A stretch of DNA of 64,000 nt from Armatimonadota bacterium. GTDB lineage: Bacteria > Armatimonadota > Fimbriimonadia > Fimbriimonadales > Fimbriimonadaceae. The stretch is taken from positions 1 to 64,000 of the forward strand of contig JAEURN010000004.1 in NCBI GenBank assembly GCA_016789105.1. The letters run 5' to 3'. Positions 19,533 through 32,354 of the stretch are shown piece by piece. Each line of letters opens with the position of its first letter. The stretch's first letter is position 1. Both the position numbers and the translations under genes were made by a program. The notes beneath the pieces are model-generated. The model did no database searches, was not told the DNA's origin, and was given only the letters and a program-made list of their open reading frames with translations.

Positions 19533-21893
19533 TCACTTGGCTGGGAACGGCTGCCCGGGACGCTCGCCGTCCCAAAGAAGCCGGCCCCATTCCTCGGGGT
19601 CAGCCCGGTCGATGTCGGTCCAATCCAATTTGCCAGATCTGAGGGAAAGCACCCCTCCAGGGTTTTTGTCGTTGATCTCCTGGCAAGGCGGCAGGCTTTT
19701 CCAGGCATTGACGCGAATGTTCCCAATGAATGGGCGCAACATCGGGGTGGCCATCGCATCGTAGCTCGACATCGGCGGAAGACCGAGGATGAGTTCCATT
19801 GTCCTCAACATGGAGGCCGTTGTGTAATGGGTGGAATCCACAACACCCCTCATGGTCCACGGCGAAACCACCAACCCATAGGTCCGGTGCGAATCAACGT
19901 GGTCCAATGATCCTTGGGTGTCGTCTTGAATGACAAAAATAGCTGTGTCATTCCAAAATCGCGACTTGCTGATCGCTTCGACTAATTGTCCAACGGCGAG
20001 GTCGTTGTCCCCAACCATGGCTTTGGGCGAATAGCTGCCAGCCGAGTAGCCATGGGTGTGGTCATCCGGCAATGCCATAACCATTAAGGAAGGCATTTTC
20101 CCGGTTCGTTCAAAACCTTTTAGTTCTTCTAGGAATGTGGCAAGTTTCTCAGTGTCCCGGCCTCCACGGGCAAAGACCCGTTCCCATGCCTCGGAATAGC
20201 CCCACTTTTCAGGGTTTTCGCGGATCGATTGATCCTCCAAAGAACCATGGCCTTCTTGGACGTCAACATACTCCCCATACACCCGGGCCGAAAGCTTCTT
20301 CTCCCGAGCGATGCTCCAGAGGTATTCGCCGGGGGATGCAGTGAGCCGTTTGTCACTCGTCAATTCTCCTTTGTCGCCGTAGTTGCTGCTCCATTGCGAT
20401 TCTGTGTACTCATTTGCATAGGCAGAAGTGGTCCATTGGTGGCCAACCTGCGAGGACTCGCCATCGCAGTAAAGATTGTCGAAAATGACAAAATCCCGCG
20501 CCAAGGCATGCTGGTTGGGTGTGATGCGTTCCCCAAAAATCGTGACGGAAGGGTCACCGTTGGCTCCGCTGATGTCACCGAAAACCTGGTCATACGATTT
20601 ATTCTCTTTGATGACGTAGATCACATGTTTGATCTTCTTCAGGTTCGCCAAAGCCATGCTTTTCTGACCGCTGGTCAGGCCGGTCGAACGGTCGCCTTCA
20701 GGCATGTTCTCGGCAACTTGGACGGACATCGCATTCAATTGCATCTGGTTAGGCATGTCGATGAATGCGACCCGGGCGGTCATTTGTCGTTTGGCACTTC
20801 CGGCATTGGGGATCTCCTTTCCACCTGCCTGCGAGGGCCCATAAAAACCTTTGGCAGTTGCCACCAACAAGCGTTTGCCGTCCGGGGTAACCGCAACCGA
20901 GCTCGGCCACCGCTCGGTCGGGATATGCCCCAGCACTTTCGGGCGCTCTCCGGTCACATCAAGCACGGCCACGGCGTTTTCGCCCGCCAAGGTCACAAAC
21001 AACCGTTTCCCATCTGGCGAGACGCACAGATCGGTGGGAGTTGGGCCAACACGGTGCAGCTTGTCGACAGAAACTGTGATGCGGGTAAGAACCCCTCCCC
21101 GATTTTGTAGGATCGTGTTCGCCCCCGATTCAGCGACGAAGTACCGGCCATCCGGGTGGTAGGCAAGCGCCGTTGGGTGGGGAAGGGTCTTGATTCTTTT
21201 GATGGGCCTCAGTGTCTGTGCTTCCAGCAGGACGACCCCGGATCCGCCCCAGTCGGAAACGGCGACAAACCGTTTATTTGGCGACATCGCCACCGCCCGC
21301 GGACGGTAGCCGACTTGTGTTTTGGCAACAACTTTTCCCAATGAGTCCAGCCGTAAAATTTCGTTGGATTGGGCGTTGACAACGTACAGATCCCCTTTGT
21401 AGTTCAAGAGTGACGTGACAAACCGCAAATCAGGCGCGATATCGGTGAGCGTGACAGCCCCGATAGGCATGAGTTTTCCCCCTGCCAGTTGCCATTTGCG
21501 GATGTCTTCTGTCTTGCCTCCGCTGCGTCCACCTGACGTGTAGATGGCGTCACCCTCCGCCGAGATTCCAAAAGAACTGCGCGCCACGACCTTGGAATCC
21601 GTGATTTCCCCAGTCCGCCAATCAAACACGGTTAGCGAGTGGTCGTTATAGCCGCTGGTCGCCACCAGGGCATGGTTCCCATCTGGCGAGAAAACGATTT
21701 TGCCGGGCATGTCCCCATTCAATGTGATTCGGTTCCCAGCAGGCGACAGAGACCAGCCGTTGTAAAGTTTGAATCGGGTCTTTCCTTCATTCCAGCCAAC
21801 GTCGGGCCGCTGGGCAACCTGACCGACGATAGCTGCGGCGATCGTTGCTGAGAGGATGGAGGCCACAAAGAGCGGTCTTGATACTGATTTCAT
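19533..21893 (-). CDS. Secreted YVTN beta-propeller / phosphoesterase (acid phosphatase-like)
   Basis: The 786-residue protein has an N-terminal signal segment (VSRPLFVASILSATIAAAIVG). A seven-bladed propeller of YVTN-type repeats follows (for example VYVVNAQSNEILRLDSLGKV and LFVTLAGENAVAVLDV). A phosphoesterase domain of the phospholipase C/acid phosphatase family completes it, with HVIYVIKENKSYDQVFGD, DGESSQVGHQW, ALPDDHTHGY and a metal-binding DDTQGSLDHVDSHR stretch. I chose the ATG at 21893 because the signal peptide starts there; the frame extends upstream to 22001. It probably releases phosphate from organic phosphoesters in the periplasm. A close paralogue lies at 28492-31029. Confidence 0.85.
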   Translation of the reverse strand: MKSVSRPLFVASILSATIAAAIVGQVAQRPDVGWNEGKTRFKLYNGWSLSPAGNRITLNGDMPGKIVFSPDGNHALVATSGYNDHSLTVFDWRTGEITDSKVVARSSFGISAEGDAIYTSGGRSGGKTEDIRKWQLAGGKLMPIGAVTLTDIAPDLRFVTSLLNYKGDLYVVNAQSNEILRLDSLGKVVAKTQVGYRPRAVAMSPNKRFVAVSDWGGSGVVLLEAQTLRPIKRIKTLPHPTALAYHPDGRYFVAESGANTILQNRGGVLTRITVSVDKLHRVGPTPTDLCVSPDGKRLFVTLAGENAVAVLDVTGERPKVLGHIPTERWPSSVAVTPDGKRLLVATAKGFYGPSQAGGKEIPNAGSAKRQMTARVAFIDMPNQMQLNAMSVQVAENMPEGDRSTGLTSGQKSMALANLKKIKHVIYVIKENKSYDQVFGDISGANGDPSVTIFGERITPNQHALARDFVIFDNLYCDGESSQVGHQWTTSAYANEYTESQWSSNYGDKGELTSDKRLTASPGEYLWSIAREKKLSARVYGEYVDVQEGHGSLEDQSIRENPEKWGYSEAWERVFARGGRDTEKLATFLEELKGFERTGKMPSLMVMALPDDHTHGYSAGSYSPKAMVGDNDLAVGQLVEAISKSRFWNDTAIFVIQDDTQGSLDHVDSHRTYGLVVSPWTMRGVVDSTHYTTASMLRTMELILGLPPMSSYDAMATPMLRPFIGNIRVNAWKSLPPCQEINDKNPGGVLSLRSGKLDWTDIDRADPEEWGRLLWDGERPGQPFPAK

Positions 21894-22006
21894 TTGGTGT
21901 GGGCTTGTTCGAATAATCACAGCGCACGCGGGGCGGCAAATTCGAGAGCACCCATTCCGCCGCGCCAGGTCGGTAAATCGATAGAATCCTTGTTTCGGCA
22001 AGGATT

Positions 22007-23432: not shown

Positions 23433-24560
23433 TTATTGCGCCAGTGAACTGACAACCAACTCGGCGACTCCAAATGAGAGGGTCATTCCCGTTCCAAAGA
23501 GGTTGAGTGACCAAACACCGTGATCAACCTGCCTCCACGAATAGAACCGGCCCGGGGACGTGTTGTAATGCCCAAACCAACGCTCGGCAACGGAAAACTC
23601 CGACCAATCCAAGAACTGGTCTAGTGCTTCTAAGATTGCCGATTCAACTTTCGCCGAGAGGTAAGGGGATGCCGACTCTCCGTAGTCGTGGGAATCGCCG
23701 ACCGTCAAACTGCCATCGGCATGTTGGGAGACCAAAACATGGATGCCGTGCTCAACTTGAAGCGGCCAACGCTCTTGGTGGAAGGCACGGAGCGCGCCGA
23801 TCGACGGGCAATCGGCAAAGTTGGCGTAATGCCCCAAAGTCAACCCTGCGCAAAGGTGCGCCCCCATTGTCGGCCAATTCCGGCTTTTGGGGGCAAACCG
23901 CATCATTTGCAGTGTGCATCGACGCAAACCGTCCTGTGGCCCGACAGATGGGAGCAGATCCCGGAGATCCGGCCCGGCCGCCACGATTACATTCTCTGCT
24001 TCGACGCACCCGCCGCCGGCAAGCTTGACGGCCCCGGGTCCGACTGAGGAGACGGGAGTGCCGAAACGGATTTCGATCCCTTTTGCTGCAAGGTGCCGTG
24101 CCAATACATGCACGGCTTCTCTGGGGTCGACACAAACCTCCTGAGTGCTGTGGAGGGCCAACTTCAGTCCGTCGGATTTCACCGCCGGACTGATTTTTTG
24201 GGCTTGTTCGGCAGAGATCAGTCGGCCCACCGAAGGGTTATGTTCGGCAATGTCCATGAATTCGTGCAAAACTTGCTCTTCAACTTCTTCGTAGGCAAGA
24301 GTGAGCGAACCCCTCGGGTTTGCCCAAAAACCTGCTTCCCGGGCGACTTCGAGCCAAATCTCCCGGCTCCGCATTGCCAAGGTGCGCACGTGGCCGACAG
24401 GGTGGCCAAGGGGCCAGACCATTCCAAAGTTCCGGACGCTTGCGCCTTGCGCAATCGCCGATTTCTCGAGGACGACGATGCGTTTGCCTTGCCGGTGGAG
24501 GGTGTGGGCCAAGGAGAGTCCGGCGATCCCGGCCCCGATAATGGCGGCGTCATGCTTCAT
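23433..24560 (-). CDS. FAD-dependent aminophosphonate oxidase (TIGR03364 type)
   Basis: This 375-residue oxidoreductase of the DAO/glycine-oxidase fold has the dinucleotide motif IIGAGIAGLSLAHTL (GxGxxG at residues 9-14) and a C-terminal LFGTGMTLSFGVAE flavin-binding stretch. The RNFGMVWPLG segment is typical of the family found beside phosphonatase-like hydrolases. Related enzymes oxidatively deaminate 2-aminoethylphosphonate or its N-methyl form to phosphonoacetaldehyde. It is the last gene of the phn operon and overlaps the upstream permease gene by 4 bases (ATGA). Exact substrate is inferred from context. Confidence 0.75.
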   Translation of the reverse strand: MKHDAAIIGAGIAGLSLAHTLHRQGKRIVVLEKSAIAQGASVRNFGMVWPLGHPVGHVRTLAMRSREIWLEVAREAGFWANPRGSLTLAYEEVEEQVLHEFMDIAEHNPSVGRLISAEQAQKISPAVKSDGLKLALHSTQEVCVDPREAVHVLARHLAAKGIEIRFGTPVSSVGPGAVKLAGGGCVEAENVIVAAGPDLRDLLPSVGPQDGLRRCTLQMMRFAPKSRNWPTMGAHLCAGLTLGHYANFADCPSIGALRAFHQERWPLQVEHGIHVLVSQHADGSLTVGDSHDYGESASPYLSAKVESAILEALDQFLDWSEFSVAERWFGHYNTSPGRFYSWRQVDHGVWSLNLFGTGMTLSFGVAELVVSSLAQ

Positions 24561-25318
24561 GCAAGCCTCTTCCTGGCATGGGTTGAGGCCATGTCGATCA
24601 CGATGACCAGAACGACAACCAGGACGATGATTGTCGATGCCTGGTCTTCGTGGAATGTCCTGAGGGCAGAAAGGAGTTCGACGCCGATGCCGCCGGCACC
24701 GACCAAACCGAGGGTTGCCGCAGTTCGAATGTTCCGGTCAAGGATATATAAAGCGTCCGACAGAATTTCCCGCTCCACGGTCGGTAGGACACCGAAGCGG
24801 AATGATTGGAACCCGTCAGCGCCGCAGGATCTGAGGCCGTCCAGAACCCCACGCTCGATTCGCTCCACTTTTTCGGAGAGGTTTTTCCCAACATAGCCAA
24901 ATGAGTGCAACCCGAGCGCGATTGCCCCGGGAACCGGACCCAATCCCATTCCTTGGACGAGGATGAGGGCAATCAAGGCGTCTGGCATGGACCGGAAGAA
25001 ATTCAAGACTTGCCGACTGACGGCAAAGACACCCCGGTTTGGGGCGATGCTTGCAGCGGCAAAGTAAGGGCTCGGAATAGCAAGGGCCATGGCGATACTG
25101 GTGCCGACCACCCCCATCCCCACTGTTTCCCCAAGGAGCCGGAGCAACCGCGGCATCTCCTGCCAGGCCGGGTGACAATATTTGGCCAGGGCCGGAACCC
25201 CGTCGACGAGCAGACTGTTCAAGGTGGTTTGGTCAAATCCCAGCCATTTGGCACCAACCAATGCCGAAGTGGTCAACCCGGCAACGGCCCACCAGGCCGC
25301 CTTCGATGGCCGCCTCAC
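24557..25318 (-). CDS. phnE: Phosphonate ABC transporter permease (PhnE-like, second copy)
   Basis: The 253-residue protein has about six membrane segments. The permease loop reads FRSMPDALIALILVQGMG and the EAA-like region GVLDGLRSCGADGFQSFRFG. VGAGGIGVELLSAL near the C terminus is characteristic of PhnE proteins. It is encoded between the first permease and the FAD oxidase, with ATGA overlaps at both ends. Two permeases in one operon suggest a heterodimeric channel. Confidence 0.85.
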   Translation of the reverse strand: MRRPSKAAWWAVAGLTTSALVGAKWLGFDQTTLNSLLVDGVPALAKYCHPAWQEMPRLLRLLGETVGMGVVGTSIAMALAIPSPYFAAASIAPNRGVFAVSRQVLNFFRSMPDALIALILVQGMGLGPVPGAIALGLHSFGYVGKNLSEKVERIERGVLDGLRSCGADGFQSFRFGVLPTVEREILSDALYILDRNIRTAATLGLVGAGGIGVELLSALRTFHEDQASTIIVLVVVLVIVIDMASTHARKRLA

Positions 25319-26097
25319 CCGATCCTCCGCCGCAAATGGGATGAAAGGGCATCGACAAGGGAGACGGAGAGAAAGATTGACAAGATCATCGCGCCCAGCC
25401 GGTCGAACTGGAAATGCCTCACGGCGGCGGCCAGGTCAAACCCGATCCCCCCGGCGCCGACCGCCCCCAGGAAGGAAGCCGACCGGAGGTTCGAATCCAT
25501 GGCATAGAGCGAGAGCCCGAGCAAATCTGGTGCCGCCTGCGGCACGACCCCAACCGTGCGCTGGGCCAGCCAACCGCCCCCAGAGGCAGCAACACCTTCG
25601 ACGGGATTCTTTCCGGTGACTTCCAGCGCGTCTGCGTAGGCTTTGACCAAGTAGGCAACACTGGCGGTAACCAGGGCCAAAACACCGGGGACGTTCCCAA
25701 GCCCAAGTGCCGAGGCAAGCACAAGGGCAACCAACAAATCCGGAACCGCCCGAAAAATGCTGGCGACGGCTTTGAGCAACCATCCTACTACAGGATGGGG
25801 CGTGCAGTTGCGGGCGGCCAACAAGGAGATGGGGAACGAAAGGAGGCAAGATGCCACGGTCGCAACGAATGCGATCACCACTGTTTCCAAGGTCAAGGCC
25901 GCAAGCCGAGGCAGGTAGCTAAAATCGGGGGCGACCCACATCCGGCCGACAAATGTCGCCAACGGCCCTGGAGATCGCGCCAAGCCCGGCAGGTCGACCT
26001 GGATCATCATCCCCGATAGGGCAAAGACCAGACCAATGGATGCCGACATCCACCACGTCGGGGCGGAAGGCTTTCCGTTGGGTGTGACACACCTCAT
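25315..26097 (-). CDS. phnE: Phosphonate ABC transporter permease (PhnE-like, first copy)
   Basis: The 260-residue protein has about six membrane segments. FRAVPDLLVALVLASALGLG is followed by an EAA-like EGVAASGGGWLAQRTVG and VGAGGIGFDLAAAV, all matching PhnE. I chose the ATG at 26097 because it overlaps the phnC stop as ATGA, like every other junction in this operon; the frame continues to 26130. It is similar in layout to the next permease and probably pairs with it. Confidence 0.85.
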   Translation of the reverse strand: MRCVTPNGKPSAPTWWMSASIGLVFALSGMMIQVDLPGLARSPGPLATFVGRMWVAPDFSYLPRLAALTLETVVIAFVATVASCLLSFPISLLAARNCTPHPVVGWLLKAVASIFRAVPDLLVALVLASALGLGNVPGVLALVTASVAYLVKAYADALEVTGKNPVEGVAASGGGWLAQRTVGVVPQAAPDLLGLSLYAMDSNLRSASFLGAVGAGGIGFDLAAAVRHFQFDRLGAMILSIFLSVSLVDALSSHLRRRIG

Positions 26098-26828
26098 TGG
26101 TAAAGTGCCTTGTGGTCTTCTTCGGTCCACTCACCGGGGTTCCTTTCAAAGATGATGGCTCCGTTTTTCACCCCCACAATGCGGTCAGCGTGTTTGACTG
26201 CCAAGTCGACTTGGTGGAGATTAACGACCAGAGTCGCCTCTCGGGATCGGGCAGCTGAAACAAGGAGGTGCAAGATCTCCTCGCTCGTTGCCGGATCCAA
26301 GGAAGCAACGGGTTCATCGGCCAGAATCACGTCAGCCTGTTGGACGAGCGTGCGTGCAATGGCCACGCGCTGCTGTTGCCCGCCGCTGAGCTTGTCGACC
26401 CGATCCCATGCACGGTCTTGGAGACCGACTTGCTCCAGTGCCTTATGGGCAAGGTCGAAGTCGGAGTCGGGAAACGTGAAAAACAGGCTTGTGACCCATG
26501 AGCGGTAGGCCAGTCTGCCGCACAAGACGTTGGCCATCACGCTCAGCCGGGGAACAAGGTTGAACTGCTGGAACACCATTCCCACCTCTTTGCGGATTTC
26601 TCGCAAGTTGCCGGGTTGGACAGCGCGCCCGCCGACAGAAACGGTTCCCGATGTCGCCGATTCCAAGCCATTGATCAGGCGCAACAGTGTGCTTTTTCCC
26701 GCCCCGCTGGGCCCAAGCACGACGGTGACTTTGCCCGGCTCAAAGGCCAGGTCGATGCCGCGGACGGCTTCGACCCCATTGGGGAATCTTTTGGTCACGC
26801 CTTGCAATCGAACAGGCGAACCCATCAC
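26094..26828 (-). CDS. phnC: Phosphonate ABC transporter ATP-binding protein PhnC
   Basis: The 244-residue ATPase has Walker A (LGPSGAGKSTLLRLINGLE), a Q-loop (GMVFQQFNLVPRLSV), the signature LSGGQQQRVAIARTL, Walker B (VILADEPVASLDP) and the H-loop (LVVNLHQVDLA). The VFQQFNLVPRLSVMANVLCG stretch is typical of PhnC. It powers uptake of phosphonate bound by PhnD through the two PhnE permeases. ATGA overlaps join it to phnD upstream and phnE downstream. Confidence 0.92.
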   Translation of the reverse strand: MMGSPVRLQGVTKRFPNGVEAVRGIDLAFEPGKVTVVLGPSGAGKSTLLRLINGLESATSGTVSVGGRAVQPGNLREIRKEVGMVFQQFNLVPRLSVMANVLCGRLAYRSWVTSLFFTFPDSDFDLAHKALEQVGLQDRAWDRVDKLSGGQQQRVAIARTLVQQADVILADEPVASLDPATSEEILHLLVSAARSREATLVVNLHQVDLAVKHADRIVGVKNGAIIFERNPGEWTEEDHKALYQ

Positions 26829-27742
26829 TTGCCCATATCATTTTTGGATAACCCCAAGGCCGATGCCATTTCGGCAATCACCTGGTAGTCGTCCATTGTC
26901 ACCCGATGGAACTTTTGAAAATCCCCGACGCCGGGCACGTCCATCTTGACCCCTTTGGAATCCATGGCAAGGAAGCTTTGGACGATTTTTTCTTTCAATT
27001 GCGGATCAAGGTCTTTGCGGACAGCGATCGGCGACTGCGGGATTGGATCCGATTTCCAGAGGACGCGGAACTTGCTTTCATCGATTTCTTTGCTCGCGCA
27101 CTTGGCGTTGAACGTGATATCTTGGATTGCGCAGGCGTCGACGTTCCCGTTGACCAGTGAAAGGAGAGCGGCATCATGAGAACCGGCATAAGCGACGTTG
27201 CCAAAAAACTCTTCAGCCGTGGCATTCGTCGCCTTCAACACCGCCATCCGTGGCACCAGGTTGCCACTCGTGGAGCCTGGGTCGACCAGAGCGATTTTTT
27301 TCCCTTTCAAGTCCTTGAGTTCCTTAGCCGGGGAGTTGGCAGGAACGATGATCATGGAGAAGTAGGTTGTCGATTTCCCTTCTTCTTGGCCAATCAGGAT
27401 TGGCTCGGCGCCGGCTTCTTGGTTGGCGAGGATCATGGAAAGGGGGCCGTACCACGCCACGTCGACTTTCCCTGCTCTTTGCGCTTCAATAACGCTGGAG
27501 TAATCGGTGACACGGTCGACCTTGACATCCATCTCTAAATCTTTAGCGAGTTGGGCCCGGATAGGTTCAAACCCAACGGCCATTTTTTCAGAGTCTTCCG
27601 ATGGGGAGAGGGCGATGTGCAAAACACCGGGAGAGCCGCCGTTTTTGGCCGAGGTTCCGTTTGAAGCCGATCCCGAGGGGGCGCTGCAGCCAAAGAGAAA
27701 TGCCAACCCTAAGGCCGCCAAAAAAATGGAAAGTCGTCTCAT
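26825..27742 (-). CDS. phnD: Phosphonate-binding lipoprotein PhnD
   Basis: The 305-residue protein begins with a lipoprotein signal (LSIFLAALGLAFLFGC). LHIALSPSEDSEKMAVGFEP, VAWYGPLSMILANQEAGAE, LVDPGSTSGNLVPRMAVL and YAGSHDAALLSLVNGNVDA are the ligand-binding segments of the PhnD/phosphonate-binding family. It captures phosphonate outside the membrane for PhnCE. Its ATG overlaps the stop of the phosphonatase-like gene (ATGA). Confidence 0.92.
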   Translation of the reverse strand: MRRLSIFLAALGLAFLFGCSAPSGSASNGTSAKNGGSPGVLHIALSPSEDSEKMAVGFEPIRAQLAKDLEMDVKVDRVTDYSSVIEAQRAGKVDVAWYGPLSMILANQEAGAEPILIGQEEGKSTTYFSMIIVPANSPAKELKDLKGKKIALVDPGSTSGNLVPRMAVLKATNATAEEFFGNVAYAGSHDAALLSLVNGNVDACAIQDITFNAKCASKEIDESKFRVLWKSDPIPQSPIAVRKDLDPQLKEKIVQSFLAMDSKGVKMDVPGVGDFQKFHRVTMDDYQVIAEMASALGLSKNDMGK

Positions 27743-28437
27743 GGGGTGGTGTCTGCGAGCAAAAGGGCCGGCACGTCGAGGATCGATTCCACAATGTGCG
27801 TGTGGGGGCAGGCCGCCAGCTGCTCGCGGGAGTGGGTTCCGCCCAGCACTCCAATAACGAACCGGCAGCCGGCGTTGGTGCCTTCACCCATATCGGCCGG
27901 GGCATCGCCGATTTTGGCGACCCGGCCGGGGTCGGCGATGCCGAATCGGCACATATGGTTCAAAATCATGTCGGGGAATGGGCGACCATGCTCCACTTCG
28001 TCTGAAGAGATGGCGCCATCGATGTGGGATCCGTCCCAGCCCAGCCTTTCCAAGATGACAGCGGTGATGCCGCTACTGAACCCGGTGTCGAGGGCGACTT
28101 TGACCCCGGCCGACCGGAGTTGGGCAAAGGCGGATTCGGCGCCGTCTATCGGCCCAACTTCCAAGCTCGTCCGGTAATGGGCCTTCATCCGTTCGACAAA
28201 GTCATCGTGGATCGACTCAAGGCATCCAGTCGCTCGATGGGCAGACATGAGCTGGGCAATCGCTACCGGCTTGGGCAGTCCCATTGTGCCGTTGATTTCG
28301 GCAATGGGGACGTCAACGCCCGCCGCAAGCAAGGCATCCCTCACACACTGGTTGACATGGTCGCGGTCTTTAACCGTGGTGCCCGCAATATCGAAGACGG
28401 CGAGATCAACGAGGGGCACGTCAGTATTGTCGACCAA
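27739..28437 (-). CDS. Phosphonatase-like HAD hydrolase (PhnX-related)
   Basis: With the TTG start at 28437 the product is 232 residues. The nucleophile motif VFDIAGTTV has Asp16 followed by Ala, not Asp, at +2, as in phosphonoacetaldehyde hydrolase. GTMGLPKPVAI places Lys56 40 residues after Asp16, close to where PhnX has its Schiff-base lysine. LDTGFSSGI and KIGDAPADMGEGTNAG are HAD motifs II and IV. This fits the TIGR03351 phosphonatase-like group. It would split phosphonoacetaldehyde or a close analogue into phosphate and an aldehyde. The frame continues to 28695 but lacks HAD features there; a GTG at 28419 is an alternative start. It is the first gene of the phn operon. Confidence 0.78.
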   Translation of the reverse strand: MVDNTDVPLVDLAVFDIAGTTVKDRDHVNQCVRDALLAAGVDVPIAEINGTMGLPKPVAIAQLMSAHRATGCLESIHDDFVERMKAHYRTSLEVGPIDGAESAFAQLRSAGVKVALDTGFSSGITAVILERLGWDGSHIDGAISSDEVEHGRPFPDMILNHMCRFGIADPGRVAKIGDAPADMGEGTNAGCRFVIGVLGGTHSREQLAACPHTHIVESILDVPALLLADTTP

Positions 28438-28442
28438 GTACT

Positions 28443-28457
28443 TTAACCTGCTGTTAA
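28443..28457. promoter_or_regulatory. Inverted repeat between the divergent phosphonate operons
   Basis: TTAAC-CTGCT-GTTAA is a perfect 5-bp inverted repeat lying between the phosphonatase-like gene (minus) and the phosphoesterase gene (plus). It could bind a regulator of both operons. PhoP-type boxes are also built from TTAAC-like units, but the spacing here does not match a known box. Confidence 0.35.
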
Positions 28458-28491
28458 GGTTCCTCGGGTTGACTCTTCCGCACAGGTTCAA

Positions 28492-31029
28492 ATGATGATG
28501 CGCCGCGCGTTCTTTTTCATGGCCATGGCGATCGGGATTGGTGGGGTAGCGATCGCGACATTGGCCGCTCTGGCCAATGGCCGCATGCTGGGAGAGCAGC
28601 CTGATGGGCGGTTTCTGGTGGCTACCGGCCAGTTGGTCGCTGCCGGCGACTTGCGGTTTGTCGGACGCCCCGCGGATATGGCTCGACGCCCTCAAGGCAA
28701 CGTCTACGCGGTGAGCCTGAGGGATCAGCCCAGCAACGCCCGGCAGATCCTCTTGTTCAACCGCCAGGGGATCGTCGCCGGATCGGCCGTCCCGCTACGG
28801 CATGCTCCGGGCTACCATGGAATCGAGTGGAGCCCGGACGGCACCAGACTCTATCTTTCATGCGGCGAACAGACCGATGACGCCCAACAAGGTCGACACG
28901 ATGGCGTGATCGAAACCTTCGCCTATAGTAACGGAAAACTCACACCCATGGAGCCCATCATCGTTGGACTCCCCGGGGAACCTGGCAACCCCGTCCCGGG
29001 GGGTCTTTGCCTCAATGGGGACGGATCGAGGCTCTACGTCGCCGCAACCGACCTGAACGCCGTGGTAGAGATCGACACCGCAACCGGCAGGCGAAACAGG
29101 AAATTCCCCACCGGGATGCTGCCTTATGGAATCCGACTATCCGCGGACGAAAAAATGCTGGTCGTGACGAATTGGGGTGGGCGGATCCCCAAACCCACGG
29201 ATCGCAAGTCCAAAACCGGCGTTTCGGAGATCGCTGTGGACAACCGGGGCACGGCCTCGACTGGCTCCGCCACCCTAATCGACCTCCAAACCGGATCAAC
29301 AAGCGAGGTCGAAGTTGGCCTGCATCCAACCGATGTAGCCGTCAGCAGCACCCGGGCCTATGTCGCCAACTCCATGAGCGATTCGGTGAGCGAAATCGAC
29401 CTTCGAACAAAAGGCGTGAGACGAACAATCCCATTGCATTGGAATGGAACGAAGCTCGTCGGATCGATGCCCGTCGCTCTCGCTCAATCTGGAAGCACGC
29501 TGTATGTCTGCAACGGGGGTGACAACGCGGTTGCCGAAATCGACCTTGCATCGGGCCAAATCCTGGGGTACCGCCCGTCCGGGTTCTTTCCCATAGCCAT
29601 TTGCTTGGACGGCAAGAATGCAGTTGTGCTCAACAGCAAGGGCAATGGTTCGGTGGCAAAAACCGGCCATGGCCTTGGCTTTGGGAATGCCCATGATTTC
29701 GAAGGGACGGTTTCATGGATCAACCTAGGGGCTGACCGGGCAAAGGAGACGGCCTTGGATGCCCAGGGCAACCGATGGGAGCAGAAACCTTCCTGGCCGT
29801 CCTTGGCTGTTTACAACGGGGCGATAAAACATGTCATCTATATCATCAAGGAAAACCGGACGTATGACGAGGTCTTTGGGGATATGCCGGAAGGCAACGG
29901 CGACCCAAAACTCGCAATCCTCGGCCGGGACATTGCGCCGAACCACCAGGCCATCGCTAGGGAATTCACCCTGTTTGACAACGGCTATGTGAGCGGCACC
30001 AACAGTTGTGACGGACATGCCTGGAGCACTCAGGCGCTGGCAAACGAATATATAGAGCGCTTCTATGTCGGATATTCACGGACTTATAACGACGACGGCA
30101 ACTGCGCGATGTCCCTTAGTTCAACGGGGGCGATTTGGGATGCGGCCCTTGCTAAAGGCAAATCCGTCCGGAATTACGGCGAATTCTGCTATGCGGGCAT
30201 GGCCAAGTTTTCGCCGAGGCCGCCCAAAGACTGGTTCGAAGCATGGGAAGATCGAGAACAAGGGACGCGCAAATTTACGTTTGAGCCCGTTACCCTGGTG
30301 CCGAGCCTAAAGCCGGTCACAAACCCCCGCGTCCACTATTGGCCGCTCATCCAAAGCGACCAAGCCCGGGCCGACGAATTCATCCGCGAGTGGACCGAGT
30401 TTGGGAAGGCTGGCAAAACACCAGACCTGAGCATCCTCACACTGCCTAACGACCATACTGAAGGACTCGATCCGGCCTACCCTTCGCCCCGCGCCATGGT
30501 GGCCGATAACGACCTCGCTTTGGGACGTGTTGTAGAAGCGGTCAGCCGGAGCCCGCAATTGAAAAATACTTGCATTTTTGTCATTGAGGACGATGCGCAA
30601 AACGGCCCTGATCATGTCGATGGCCACCGGTCTGTATTCATGGTGGTTAGCCCATACAACCGCCGTCGCACCGTCGACAGCACGTTTTACACCACGGTCA
30701 GCATGGTCAAGTCCATAGAGGCGATCCTCGGGATCCCCCCGATGAACCGGTTCGACTATATGGCAGATCCCATCACAGGCTGCTTTACAGACAAACCCGA
30801 TTTCACCCCGTTCACGGCGCGGCCCAACCGTGTGCGGTTAGATGAGCCGAATCCGGGACGAGATCCGTCGCGGATGTCGCAATTGGACCGGTACTGGACA
30901 AACCAGACCCTCAACCTCGACTGGAGCGAACCTGACGCGCCCGACAACGACACGCTCAACCGGGCGATTTGGTACAGCGTCCGCGGAACCCAGCCGTACC
31001 CCGGCCAGCCAGGCGGCGAAGACGAATGA
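28492..31029 (+). CDS. YVTN beta-propeller / phosphoesterase, co-transcribed with the PbfA-like gene
   Basis: The 845-residue protein has an N-terminal membrane/signal segment (FFFMAMAIGIGGVAIATLAAL). Propeller repeats follow, such as LYVAATDLNAVVEIDTATGR and AYVANSMSDSVSEIDL. The phosphoesterase domain reads HVIYIIKENRTYDEVFGD, DGHAWSTQALANEYIERF, LPNDHTEG and EDDAQNGPDHVDGHR. Motifs match the paralogue at 19533-21893. The stop codon overlaps the ATG of the PbfA-like gene (ATGA), which ties it to phosphonate use. A periplasmic role releasing phosphate or aminophosphonate from esters before uptake is inference. Confidence 0.82.
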   Translation: MMMRRAFFFMAMAIGIGGVAIATLAALANGRMLGEQPDGRFLVATGQLVAAGDLRFVGRPADMARRPQGNVYAVSLRDQPSNARQILLFNRQGIVAGSAVPLRHAPGYHGIEWSPDGTRLYLSCGEQTDDAQQGRHDGVIETFAYSNGKLTPMEPIIVGLPGEPGNPVPGGLCLNGDGSRLYVAATDLNAVVEIDTATGRRNRKFPTGMLPYGIRLSADEKMLVVTNWGGRIPKPTDRKSKTGVSEIAVDNRGTASTGSATLIDLQTGSTSEVEVGLHPTDVAVSSTRAYVANSMSDSVSEIDLRTKGVRRTIPLHWNGTKLVGSMPVALAQSGSTLYVCNGGDNAVAEIDLASGQILGYRPSGFFPIAICLDGKNAVVLNSKGNGSVAKTGHGLGFGNAHDFEGTVSWINLGADRAKETALDAQGNRWEQKPSWPSLAVYNGAIKHVIYIIKENRTYDEVFGDMPEGNGDPKLAILGRDIAPNHQAIAREFTLFDNGYVSGTNSCDGHAWSTQALANEYIERFYVGYSRTYNDDGNCAMSLSSTGAIWDAALAKGKSVRNYGEFCYAGMAKFSPRPPKDWFEAWEDREQGTRKFTFEPVTLVPSLKPVTNPRVHYWPLIQSDQARADEFIREWTEFGKAGKTPDLSILTLPNDHTEGLDPAYPSPRAMVADNDLALGRVVEAVSRSPQLKNTCIFVIEDDAQNGPDHVDGHRSVFMVVSPYNRRRTVDSTFYTTVSMVKSIEAILGIPPMNRFDYMADPITGCFTDKPDFTPFTARPNRVRLDEPNPGRDPSRMSQLDRYWTNQTLNLDWSEPDAPDNDTLNRAIWYSVRGTQPYPGQPGGEDE

Positions 31030-32354
31030 GTCCAGATCGGCGGGCAAGTGAGGCGGAAGGGGACGTCAACGCCTCGCCGCTCCGCCTGGAATGGCAACGC
31101 GAAAACATCTCACCGGCGGCGGCCGAACTCCTCCAAAGGGATGCCGGGGCTTTTCTCCACCAAGATCTGTCCACGCCGTGCCTCAATGCCCTGGCCTGCG
31201 CCGATGGGTCGTGGATCGAAGACACGCAAGGGCGCCGGTATTTGGATTTCCACGGCAATATGGTTCACCAGGTGGGCTACGCCCACCCTCATGTGGTTGA
31301 GGCGGTCAAGTCACAAATCGACGAGCTGTGTTTTGCGCCACGTCGCTACACGAATTCTCGGGCGATCGAGCTAGCCGAAAGGCTTGCCGCCGCGTCGCCG
31401 GCAAGGCTGTCGAAAGTCTTGTTCGCTCCTGGCGGGAGTGCTGCTATCGGCATCGCGCTCAAGCTCGCACGGATCGTAACTGGCCGGCACAAAACGGTTT
31501 CGATGTGGGATTCGTTCCATGGGGCTTCGATGGATGCCTGTTCCGTCGGGGGGGAGTCCGGATTCCGGTGGGGGATTGGCCCGCTGCTGCCAGGTTCGGA
31601 ACACGTTCCGCCTCCAGACCCTTTGCGGTGCCCTCTGGGGTGCGGAGGCTCGTGTTCGATGGCCTGTGCGAACTATTTGGAATACGTATTGGATAGGGAA
31701 GGCGACGTGGGCGCCGTCATTGCCGAGCCGATCCGGTGCACAACCGTCGCCGTTCCGCCCCCCGGCTATTGGGAACGGGTTAAGGCCGCCTGCCAGCGCC
31801 ACGGCGCGTTGCTCATTTTCGATGAAATCCCAACCTGCCTGGGCCGCACCGGTGAGATGTTCGCCACTGCCCACACGGGTGTCGTCCCGGACATTTTGGT
31901 TCTGGGTAAAGGGTTGGGGGGAGGGGTTCTGCCATTAGCAGCGGTCGTTGCCGATGCAAGGTTAGACGTCGCCAAGCCCCGCTCGATCGGGCACTACACC
32001 CACGAAAAGAATCCCGTACTGTGTGCGGCTGGGCTAGCAACTCTGGACGTGATCGAGCAGGAAGGATTGGCTGAGCGGAGCAAATGGCTCGGAAAACAAA
32101 CGCTCTCAGAATTCGAACAACTGCTGAAAGACGTTCGGTGTGTGCGGGAGGTCCGGGGGGTTGGCCTTCTGTTTGGGATCGAACTTGATGACCGTGCCGC
32201 AGCCGAAAGGATCCTCTACCGGTGCCTTTCGGCGGGCCTAAACTTCAAGGTTTCGATGGGAACTGTTTTGACACTTGCTCCTCCGCTCAACATTGCCCAG
32301 GATGACCTTTCTCATGCCGTGCAAATCGTCTGCGACGCCATCCGGCAGGGTTAA
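31026..32354 (+). CDS. Class III PLP enzyme, PbfA-like aminophosphonate ammonia-lyase
   Basis: The 442-residue protein is of the class-III aminotransferase fold: DFHGNMVHQVGYAHPHV near the N terminus, LFAPGGSAAIGIALKLAR, IFDEIPTCLGRTGEMF and the PLP lysine K295 in LVLGKGLGGG. Enzymes of this group beside phosphonatase genes include PbfA, which converts (R)-1-hydroxy-2-aminoethylphosphonate to phosphonoacetaldehyde. The phn genes 2.6 kb away on the other strand support that role. It could also be a true transaminase. A cysteine-rich insert (CPLGCGGSCSMAC) follows the substrate-binding region. I chose the ATG at 31026 because it overlaps the phosphoesterase stop. Confidence 0.68.
   Translation: MSPDRRASEAEGDVNASPLRLEWQRENISPAAAELLQRDAGAFLHQDLSTPCLNALACADGSWIEDTQGRRYLDFHGNMVHQVGYAHPHVVEAVKSQIDELCFAPRRYTNSRAIELAERLAAASPARLSKVLFAPGGSAAIGIALKLARIVTGRHKTVSMWDSFHGASMDACSVGGESGFRWGIGPLLPGSEHVPPPDPLRCPLGCGGSCSMACANYLEYVLDREGDVGAVIAEPIRCTTVAVPPPGYWERVKAACQRHGALLIFDEIPTCLGRTGEMFATAHTGVVPDILVLGKGLGGGVLPLAAVVADARLDVAKPRSIGHYTHEKNPVLCAAGLATLDVIEQEGLAERSKWLGKQTLSEFEQLLKDVRCVREVRGVGLLFGIELDDRAAAERILYRCLSAGLNFKVSMGTVLTLAPPLNIAQDDLSHAVQIVCDAIRQG

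Follow-up and report, generated by a model that had tools for sequence, protein, structure and literature searches.

The window analysed here, bases 1-64000 of contig C4 (JAEURN010000004.1) of an Armatimonadota genome (G000; 11 contigs totalling 2.75 Mb, completeness 99.96%), contains a divergent gene cluster which we read, with a probability of about 0.8, as a locus for scavenging aminophosphonates independently of the transaminase PhnW. In the proposed pathway, PhnCDE would import free aminophosphonates; a flavin adenine dinucleotide (FAD) oxidase of the PbfD type would deaminate 2-aminoethylphosphonate (AEP), its N-methyl form, or both, to phosphonoacetaldehyde, with O2 as acceptor; PbfA would reach the same aldehyde by eliminating ammonia from (R)-1-hydroxy-AEP (R-HAEP); and a hydrolase of the TIGR03351 type would cleave the C-P bond of phosphonoacetaldehyde via a lysine Schiff base, yielding acetaldehyde and phosphate. 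The estimate applies to this core pathway, without the step proposed below for PPE2, the phosphoesterase encoded next to PbfA. It draws on family membership and gene context, and the substrates and enzyme activities are those that we infer from sequence.

A conserved divergent cluster in a genome without PhnW

A preliminary description of this DNA had noted that PhnW is missing from the window, and had named beforehand a phnW gene elsewhere in the genome as grounds against its proposal, namely that the locus feeds two or more aminophosphonates into one hydrolase by oxidation and ammonia elimination. A profile search with TIGR02326 bore out the first observation and found no PhnW in the whole genome either, the best match reaching 32.5 bits where the cut-off is 400.8. 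The proposal itself gains support, conditional on the predicted activities, from the fact that two putative phosphonoacetaldehyde-forming enzymes and a hydrolase bearing the equivalent of PhnX Lys53 (see below) share a conserved divergent cluster where PhnW is absent. As for other phosphonate routes, the genome gave no match to the C-P lyase PhnJ (PF06007), and neither PepM nor PhnA exceeded its cut-off in profile searches.

The same separation is seen across the phylum: among 291 genomes, PhnW passes its cut-off in four and PbfA in six, and the two sets share no genome. Named PbfA loci come from 80 genomes, and PhnW was also scored in 50 of these (mostly those with the longer loci, two of them Armatimonadota), where it passes in 33, reaches 275-287 bits in five, and stays below 200 bits or is unlisted in 12. 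A complete chromosome, that of Lacipirellula limnantheis (L172), and an isolate, Paracidobacterium acidisoli (L182), are among these 12, so that the occurrence of PbfA without PhnW is not limited to incomplete assemblies.

The cluster is made of two units. The minus-strand operon, running from about 28419 down to 23433, encodes a PhnX-like haloacid dehalogenase (HAD) hydrolase, our candidate phosphonoacetaldehyde hydrolase (27739..28419, with a proposed GTG start at 28419), the phosphonate-binding protein PhnD (26825..27742; TIGR03431, 267.1 bits, cut-off 261.1), the ATPase PhnC (26094..26828; TIGR02315, 285.2 bits, cut-off 266.1), two PhnE permeases (25315..26097 with 235.6 bits and 24557..25318 with 235.9 bits; TIGR01097, cut-off 216.7) and an FAD-dependent amine oxidase of the PbfD type (23433..24560; TIGR03364, 350.9 bits, cut-off 285.1; PF01266, 158.9). 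All five junctions are four-base overlaps, ATGA or GTGA, and the ATG of the first permease, at 26097, overlaps the PhnC stop. On the plus strand, the PF04185 phosphoesterase PPE2 (28492..31029; PF04185, 42.3 bits, gathering cut-off 23) is followed by PbfA (31026..32354; NF049939, 638.5 bits, cut-off 525, covering positions 2-440 of 442), whose start overlaps the PPE2 stop (ATGA). All the named genes were found, and they are intact. Profile scores confirm the hydrolase, PhnDC, both PhnE, the TIGR03364 oxidase and PbfA as they had been listed in the preliminary description; that list was correct as given but left out the phosphoesterase lying between hydrolase and PbfA (28492-31029). In G093 every gene of the cluster is conserved, and G096 keeps the same two units. 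These two, G095 and the window's genome form a same-family group of four, in which G096 and G095 correspond to L123 and L150 among the named PbfA loci (uncultured Armatimonadetes).

Two putative entries to phosphonoacetaldehyde

The TIGR03364 profile exceeds its cut-off in 37 of the 291 genomes of the phylum. PMC10590968 gives PbfD1 as annotated with TIGR03364, and reports that enzymes of the PbfC and PbfD kinds turn N-methyl-AEP into phosphonoacetaldehyde by oxidation. The window oxidase may mainly take methylated AEP, in which case AEP itself would go unused, and this would count against our reading of the locus. Such a restriction, with the locus feeding on N-methyl-AEP and R-HAEP and not on AEP, finds a precedent in the PbfC of Azospirillum, which discriminates about 400-fold against AEP; AEP oxidation was nevertheless shown in the group of pbfD genes without phnW, where PbfD2 of Mariniblastus fucicola, from a genome apparently without PhnW, oxidises both N-methyl-AEP and AEP, the latter only 4-fold slower (PMC10590968). 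As the window's genome has no PhnW either, we regard the restricted substrate range as unlikely, if a serious contender.

A number of loci encode, near PbfA, a further PbfA-like protein (44-48% to PbfA of the window); they are mostly from Desulfobacterales and Syntrophales-type genomes (L135, L137, L140, L141, L143, L153, L157, L159, L160, L161, L162, L171, L178, L190, L192 and L198).

The PhnX-like hydrolase

The hydrolase keeps the Asp nucleophile motif (DIAGTT, of the DxAGTT type), and the lysine of its MGLPKP segment aligns with a position occupied by K in 2iof and by R in 2ioh, which is that of Lys53 of PhnX, the Schiff-base lysine. This column holds K in 38 of 44 aligned family members, and the six without lysine represent one copy seen only within the genus of the window (G000 C1, G151, G152, G153, G154 and G157). 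Every aligned hydrolase that neighbours TIGR03364, PbfA or PhnW has the Lys53 equivalent, except for the second, no-lysine copy in G151 and G152; there the FAD gene is flanked by the no-lysine copy on one side and by a lysine-bearing hydrolase on the other. PbfA and the PhnX-like hydrolase lie on one contig within about 8 kb in five of the six Armatimonadota PbfA genomes (G095 excepted), and the hydrolase adjoins PbfA in G091 and also in G025, a genome with no TIGR03364 over cut-off. Moreover, the same hydrolase type stands beside PhnW and PbfA in a locus from Verrucomicrobia (L149), and in G030 (L118:7138-9009; G030:C106) it is fused to PhnW in a single 624-aa protein, which scores 486.4 bits for PhnW and 210.9 bits for TIGR03351. 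On the predicted activities, three phosphonoacetaldehyde-making routes meet on this hydrolase type, a context that speaks for phosphonoacetaldehyde as its substrate.

Several observations weigh against this assignment. The trimmed protein scores 197.8 bits against TIGR03351, under the cut-off of 218.9, and 97.6 bits against TIGR01422 (PhnX), under the cut-off of 220, and is therefore formally a member of neither family; the TIGR03351 cut-off is passed by its relatives L038 (220.6 bits) and L039 (236.5 bits). It has Ala at the position of PhnX His56, an important residue of that enzyme. The predicted fold (AlphaFold2 model, pLDDT, the predicted local distance difference test score, 92.7) is equally close to the HAD phosphatase AlnB (Z 28.7) and to PhnX (Z 26.6), and fold comparison was dropped as a decider of hydrolase identity because the two score alike. 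Finally, TIGR03351, whose NCBI status is that of a hypothetical equivalog, is named nowhere in the literature searched, and hence no assay of it was found; TIGR03364 is named there in two papers.

The scores under the PhnX cut-offs and the missing His56, together with the sister copy in the genus, which has no lysine and must therefore do something else, would fit a hydrolase whose substrate is a phosphate ester or a different aldehyde phosphonate, with the true phosphonoacetaldehyde hydrolase encoded elsewhere. However, the hydrolase type adjoins or is fused to three enzymes producing phosphonoacetaldehyde, and the genome's next candidate of the TIGR03351 type, a second hydrolase on contig C1 (G000:C1:107305-107961; L103:8297-8980; 152 bits), lacks the Lys53 equivalent. 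We consider this alternative quite improbable, and keep phosphonoacetaldehyde as the likely substrate. Elsewhere in the phylum, four genomes (G039, G040, G041 and G042) have a TIGR03364 oxidase over cut-off with no strong TIGR03351-type hydrolase match in the genome.

A phosphoesterase linked to PbfA

PPE2, co-translated with PbfA, would be secreted and would hydrolyse phosphonate monoesters (phosphonolipid or phosphonoglycan) outside the membrane, supplying the transporter. Release of esterified aminophosphonate by PPE2 is a tentative proposal, argued from linkage, whose chances we put somewhat short of even. In the protein, a helix predicted at the N-terminus (2-29) is followed by a beta-propeller (about 50-412) and, after 445, by the PF04185 phosphoesterase domain; helix and family together indicate that it is probably secreted. 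The best fold matches of the propeller are hydrazine synthase beta and YncE and, because the PDB fold matches of PPE2 are filled by beta-propellers, the phosphoesterase domain was tested by sequence profile only. By profile, PPE2 matches the acid phosphatase 2d1g (E 2.7e-13), and the phosphocholine-specific phospholipase C (PC-PLC) family TIGR03396 (cut-off 580.25) is not among its matches at E<=0.001. Across 22 relatives, residues E454, N455, D700, D701, H708 and H712 do not vary.

PPE2 belongs to the PbfA cluster in five of the six Armatimonadota PbfA genomes. In G093, G095 and G096 a PPE2-like gene either overlaps PbfA or is next to it, and in G025 a single gene separates the two, which share a strand; no such gene was found in the 15 kb upstream in G091, whose contig ends about 1.3 kb beyond the hydrolase. 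With the four same-family genomes counted as one event, the linkage holds in two of three lineages, which has a probability of about 2e-4 by chance. Outside the phylum, PF04185 proteins occur near PbfA in four of 78 loci (L189, L182, L188 and L158; flanks of at most 10 kb were sampled, and many loci were shorter), belonging to Acidobacteria and one alphaproteobacterium, where 0.24-1.2 would be expected on the assumption of one to five PF04185 genes per 5 Mb (P 1e-4 to 0.04). One of these, L189, is an acidobacterial metagenome-assembled genome with the gene run PbfA-PhnW-PPE. Among the named PbfA genomes scored for PhnW, the locus contains a PF04185 gene in 5 of the 12 with PhnW below 200 bits or unlisted, versus 1 of the 38 others (P 0.002; P 0.025 minus the two Armatimonadota).

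PPE2 could, instead, be a general phosphate-scavenging phosphatase or phospholipase that stands beside PbfA only through a shared phosphate-starvation response, and we give this a chance just below even. PF04185 beta-propeller genes are common (the window's genome has six, and at E<=1e-30 relatives are present in 142 of the 291 genomes), no phosphonate gene was detected within about 8 kb of most close PPE2 relatives, and the cluster-linked copies do not form one clade, all of which tells against phosphonate release. The count of genomes in which PPE2-like and TIGR03364 genes co-occur, 21 of 32 versus 16 of 259, gives a contrast confounded by kinship, and within genus g6 the co-occurrence is not significant (P 0.61). 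The notion that PPE2 relatives are generally cluster-bound was rejected, linkage being near chance among 32 PPE2-like loci away from PbfA (L225 and L237-L267), of which only those of G052 and G027 adjoin TIGR03364 and hydrolase. A general scavenging role is opposed by the overlap of the PPE2 stop with the PbfA start, by the recurrence of the cluster in lineages where chance would rarely produce it, and by the PF04185 enzymes that independently stand close to PbfA in Acidobacteria and the alphaproteobacterium.

A broader reading, which we advance with more doubt than the release step in PPE2, would join both proteins: PF04185 phosphoesterases may be recurrent outside-membrane partners of PbfA, especially where PhnW is absent, hydrolysing monoesters of AEP or 1-hydroxy-AEP (a beta-propeller type in Armatimonadota, a phospholipase-C type in Acidobacteria and the alphaproteobacterium), and the TIGR03351 family may constitute a second type of phosphonoacetaldehyde hydrolase, divergent from the first. 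If true, this would be a first 'phosphonolipase' step feeding a hydrolytic phosphonate pathway.

In two loci from Terriglobia (L188 and L191), a TonB-type outer-membrane barrel and a melibiase-like glycosidase are encoded beside PbfA, hinting at release from glycans. The window also carries a second beta-propeller PF04185 phosphoesterase (19533-22001, minus strand; 61.7 bits), which lies downstream of the FAD gene and is separated from it by a pilin-like gene; it was left out of the locus, as no copy was found next to the FAD genes of G093 and G096.

The divergent promoter

The 72-base intergenic region between the two units contains a putatively Pho-box-like element, TTAA-N7-TTAA (28443..28457), which is the only match in the 64 kb (0.20 expected) and is absent from the preliminary description. 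A box with this spacing also precedes the hydrolase gene in G093 and G096 and the FAD gene in G157 and G001; it is found in 4 of 69 upstream regions plus the window, versus about 0.8 predicted from a background of 32 matches in 968,412 bases. We take it to resemble the 11-base period of PhoB/PhoP-type boxes, and infer control by phosphate starvation through this element. A sigma-70-like match at 28469-28496 was not used, since it overlaps the PPE2 start.

Comparison with known systems

The core idea is not new, because oxidative deamination of AEP in place of PhnW has already been published (PMC10590968). Within the passages of the literature covered, the characterised enzymes of the hydrolytic route all start from the free compound, and PPE2 is a concrete candidate for a release step. 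For phosphonate-releasing phospholipases, we found no paper joining PF04185 or phospholipase C genes to aminophosphonate clusters in a search that had most subscription journals outside it, and the part of PMC12366243 covered does not mention a phosphoesterase. The locus also provides genomic evidence on the role of TIGR03351 hydrolases.

The closest published relative is the PbfD2-PhnX route of M. fucicola (Zangelmi et al. 2023, PMC10590968), which shares with the window an FAD oxidase replacing PhnW, one phosphonoacetaldehyde hydrolase and a genome without PhnW. PbfA as a second entry and a PbfA-coupled phosphoesterase are features of the window, and the window hydrolase is nearest TIGR03351, not TIGR01422, a comparison of hydrolase type made from the window side only. 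The survey of PbfA in PMC8154272 covered phnWX, phnWAY, phnY*Z and palAB clusters and placed none in the last two. Its phnWX-pbfA clusters resemble the window in that PbfA feeds phosphonoacetaldehyde to a hydrolase, as we propose here, but they are defined by having phnW, which the window's genome lacks.

Within about 10 kb, the isolate P. acidisoli 4G-K13 (L182) combines a PC-PLC (TIGR03396), PhnX, a TIGR03364 oxidase, a major facilitator superfamily (MFS) transporter and PbfA, and a profile search of its genome did not find PhnW. Like the window, it has a PF04185 enzyme beside a PhnW-free cluster of PbfA and TIGR03364; it differs in that its phospholipase C has a C-terminal PF05506 domain and no beta-propeller, its PhnX is of the classical TIGR01422 type, and its transporter is of the MFS type, not PhnCDE. 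The pairing of PbfA with the oxidase where PhnW is absent is a new form of the published oxidase-plus-PhnX route, present also in this isolate of the Acidobacteria, which offers a cultured organism where a PhnW-free double-entry pathway could be tested.

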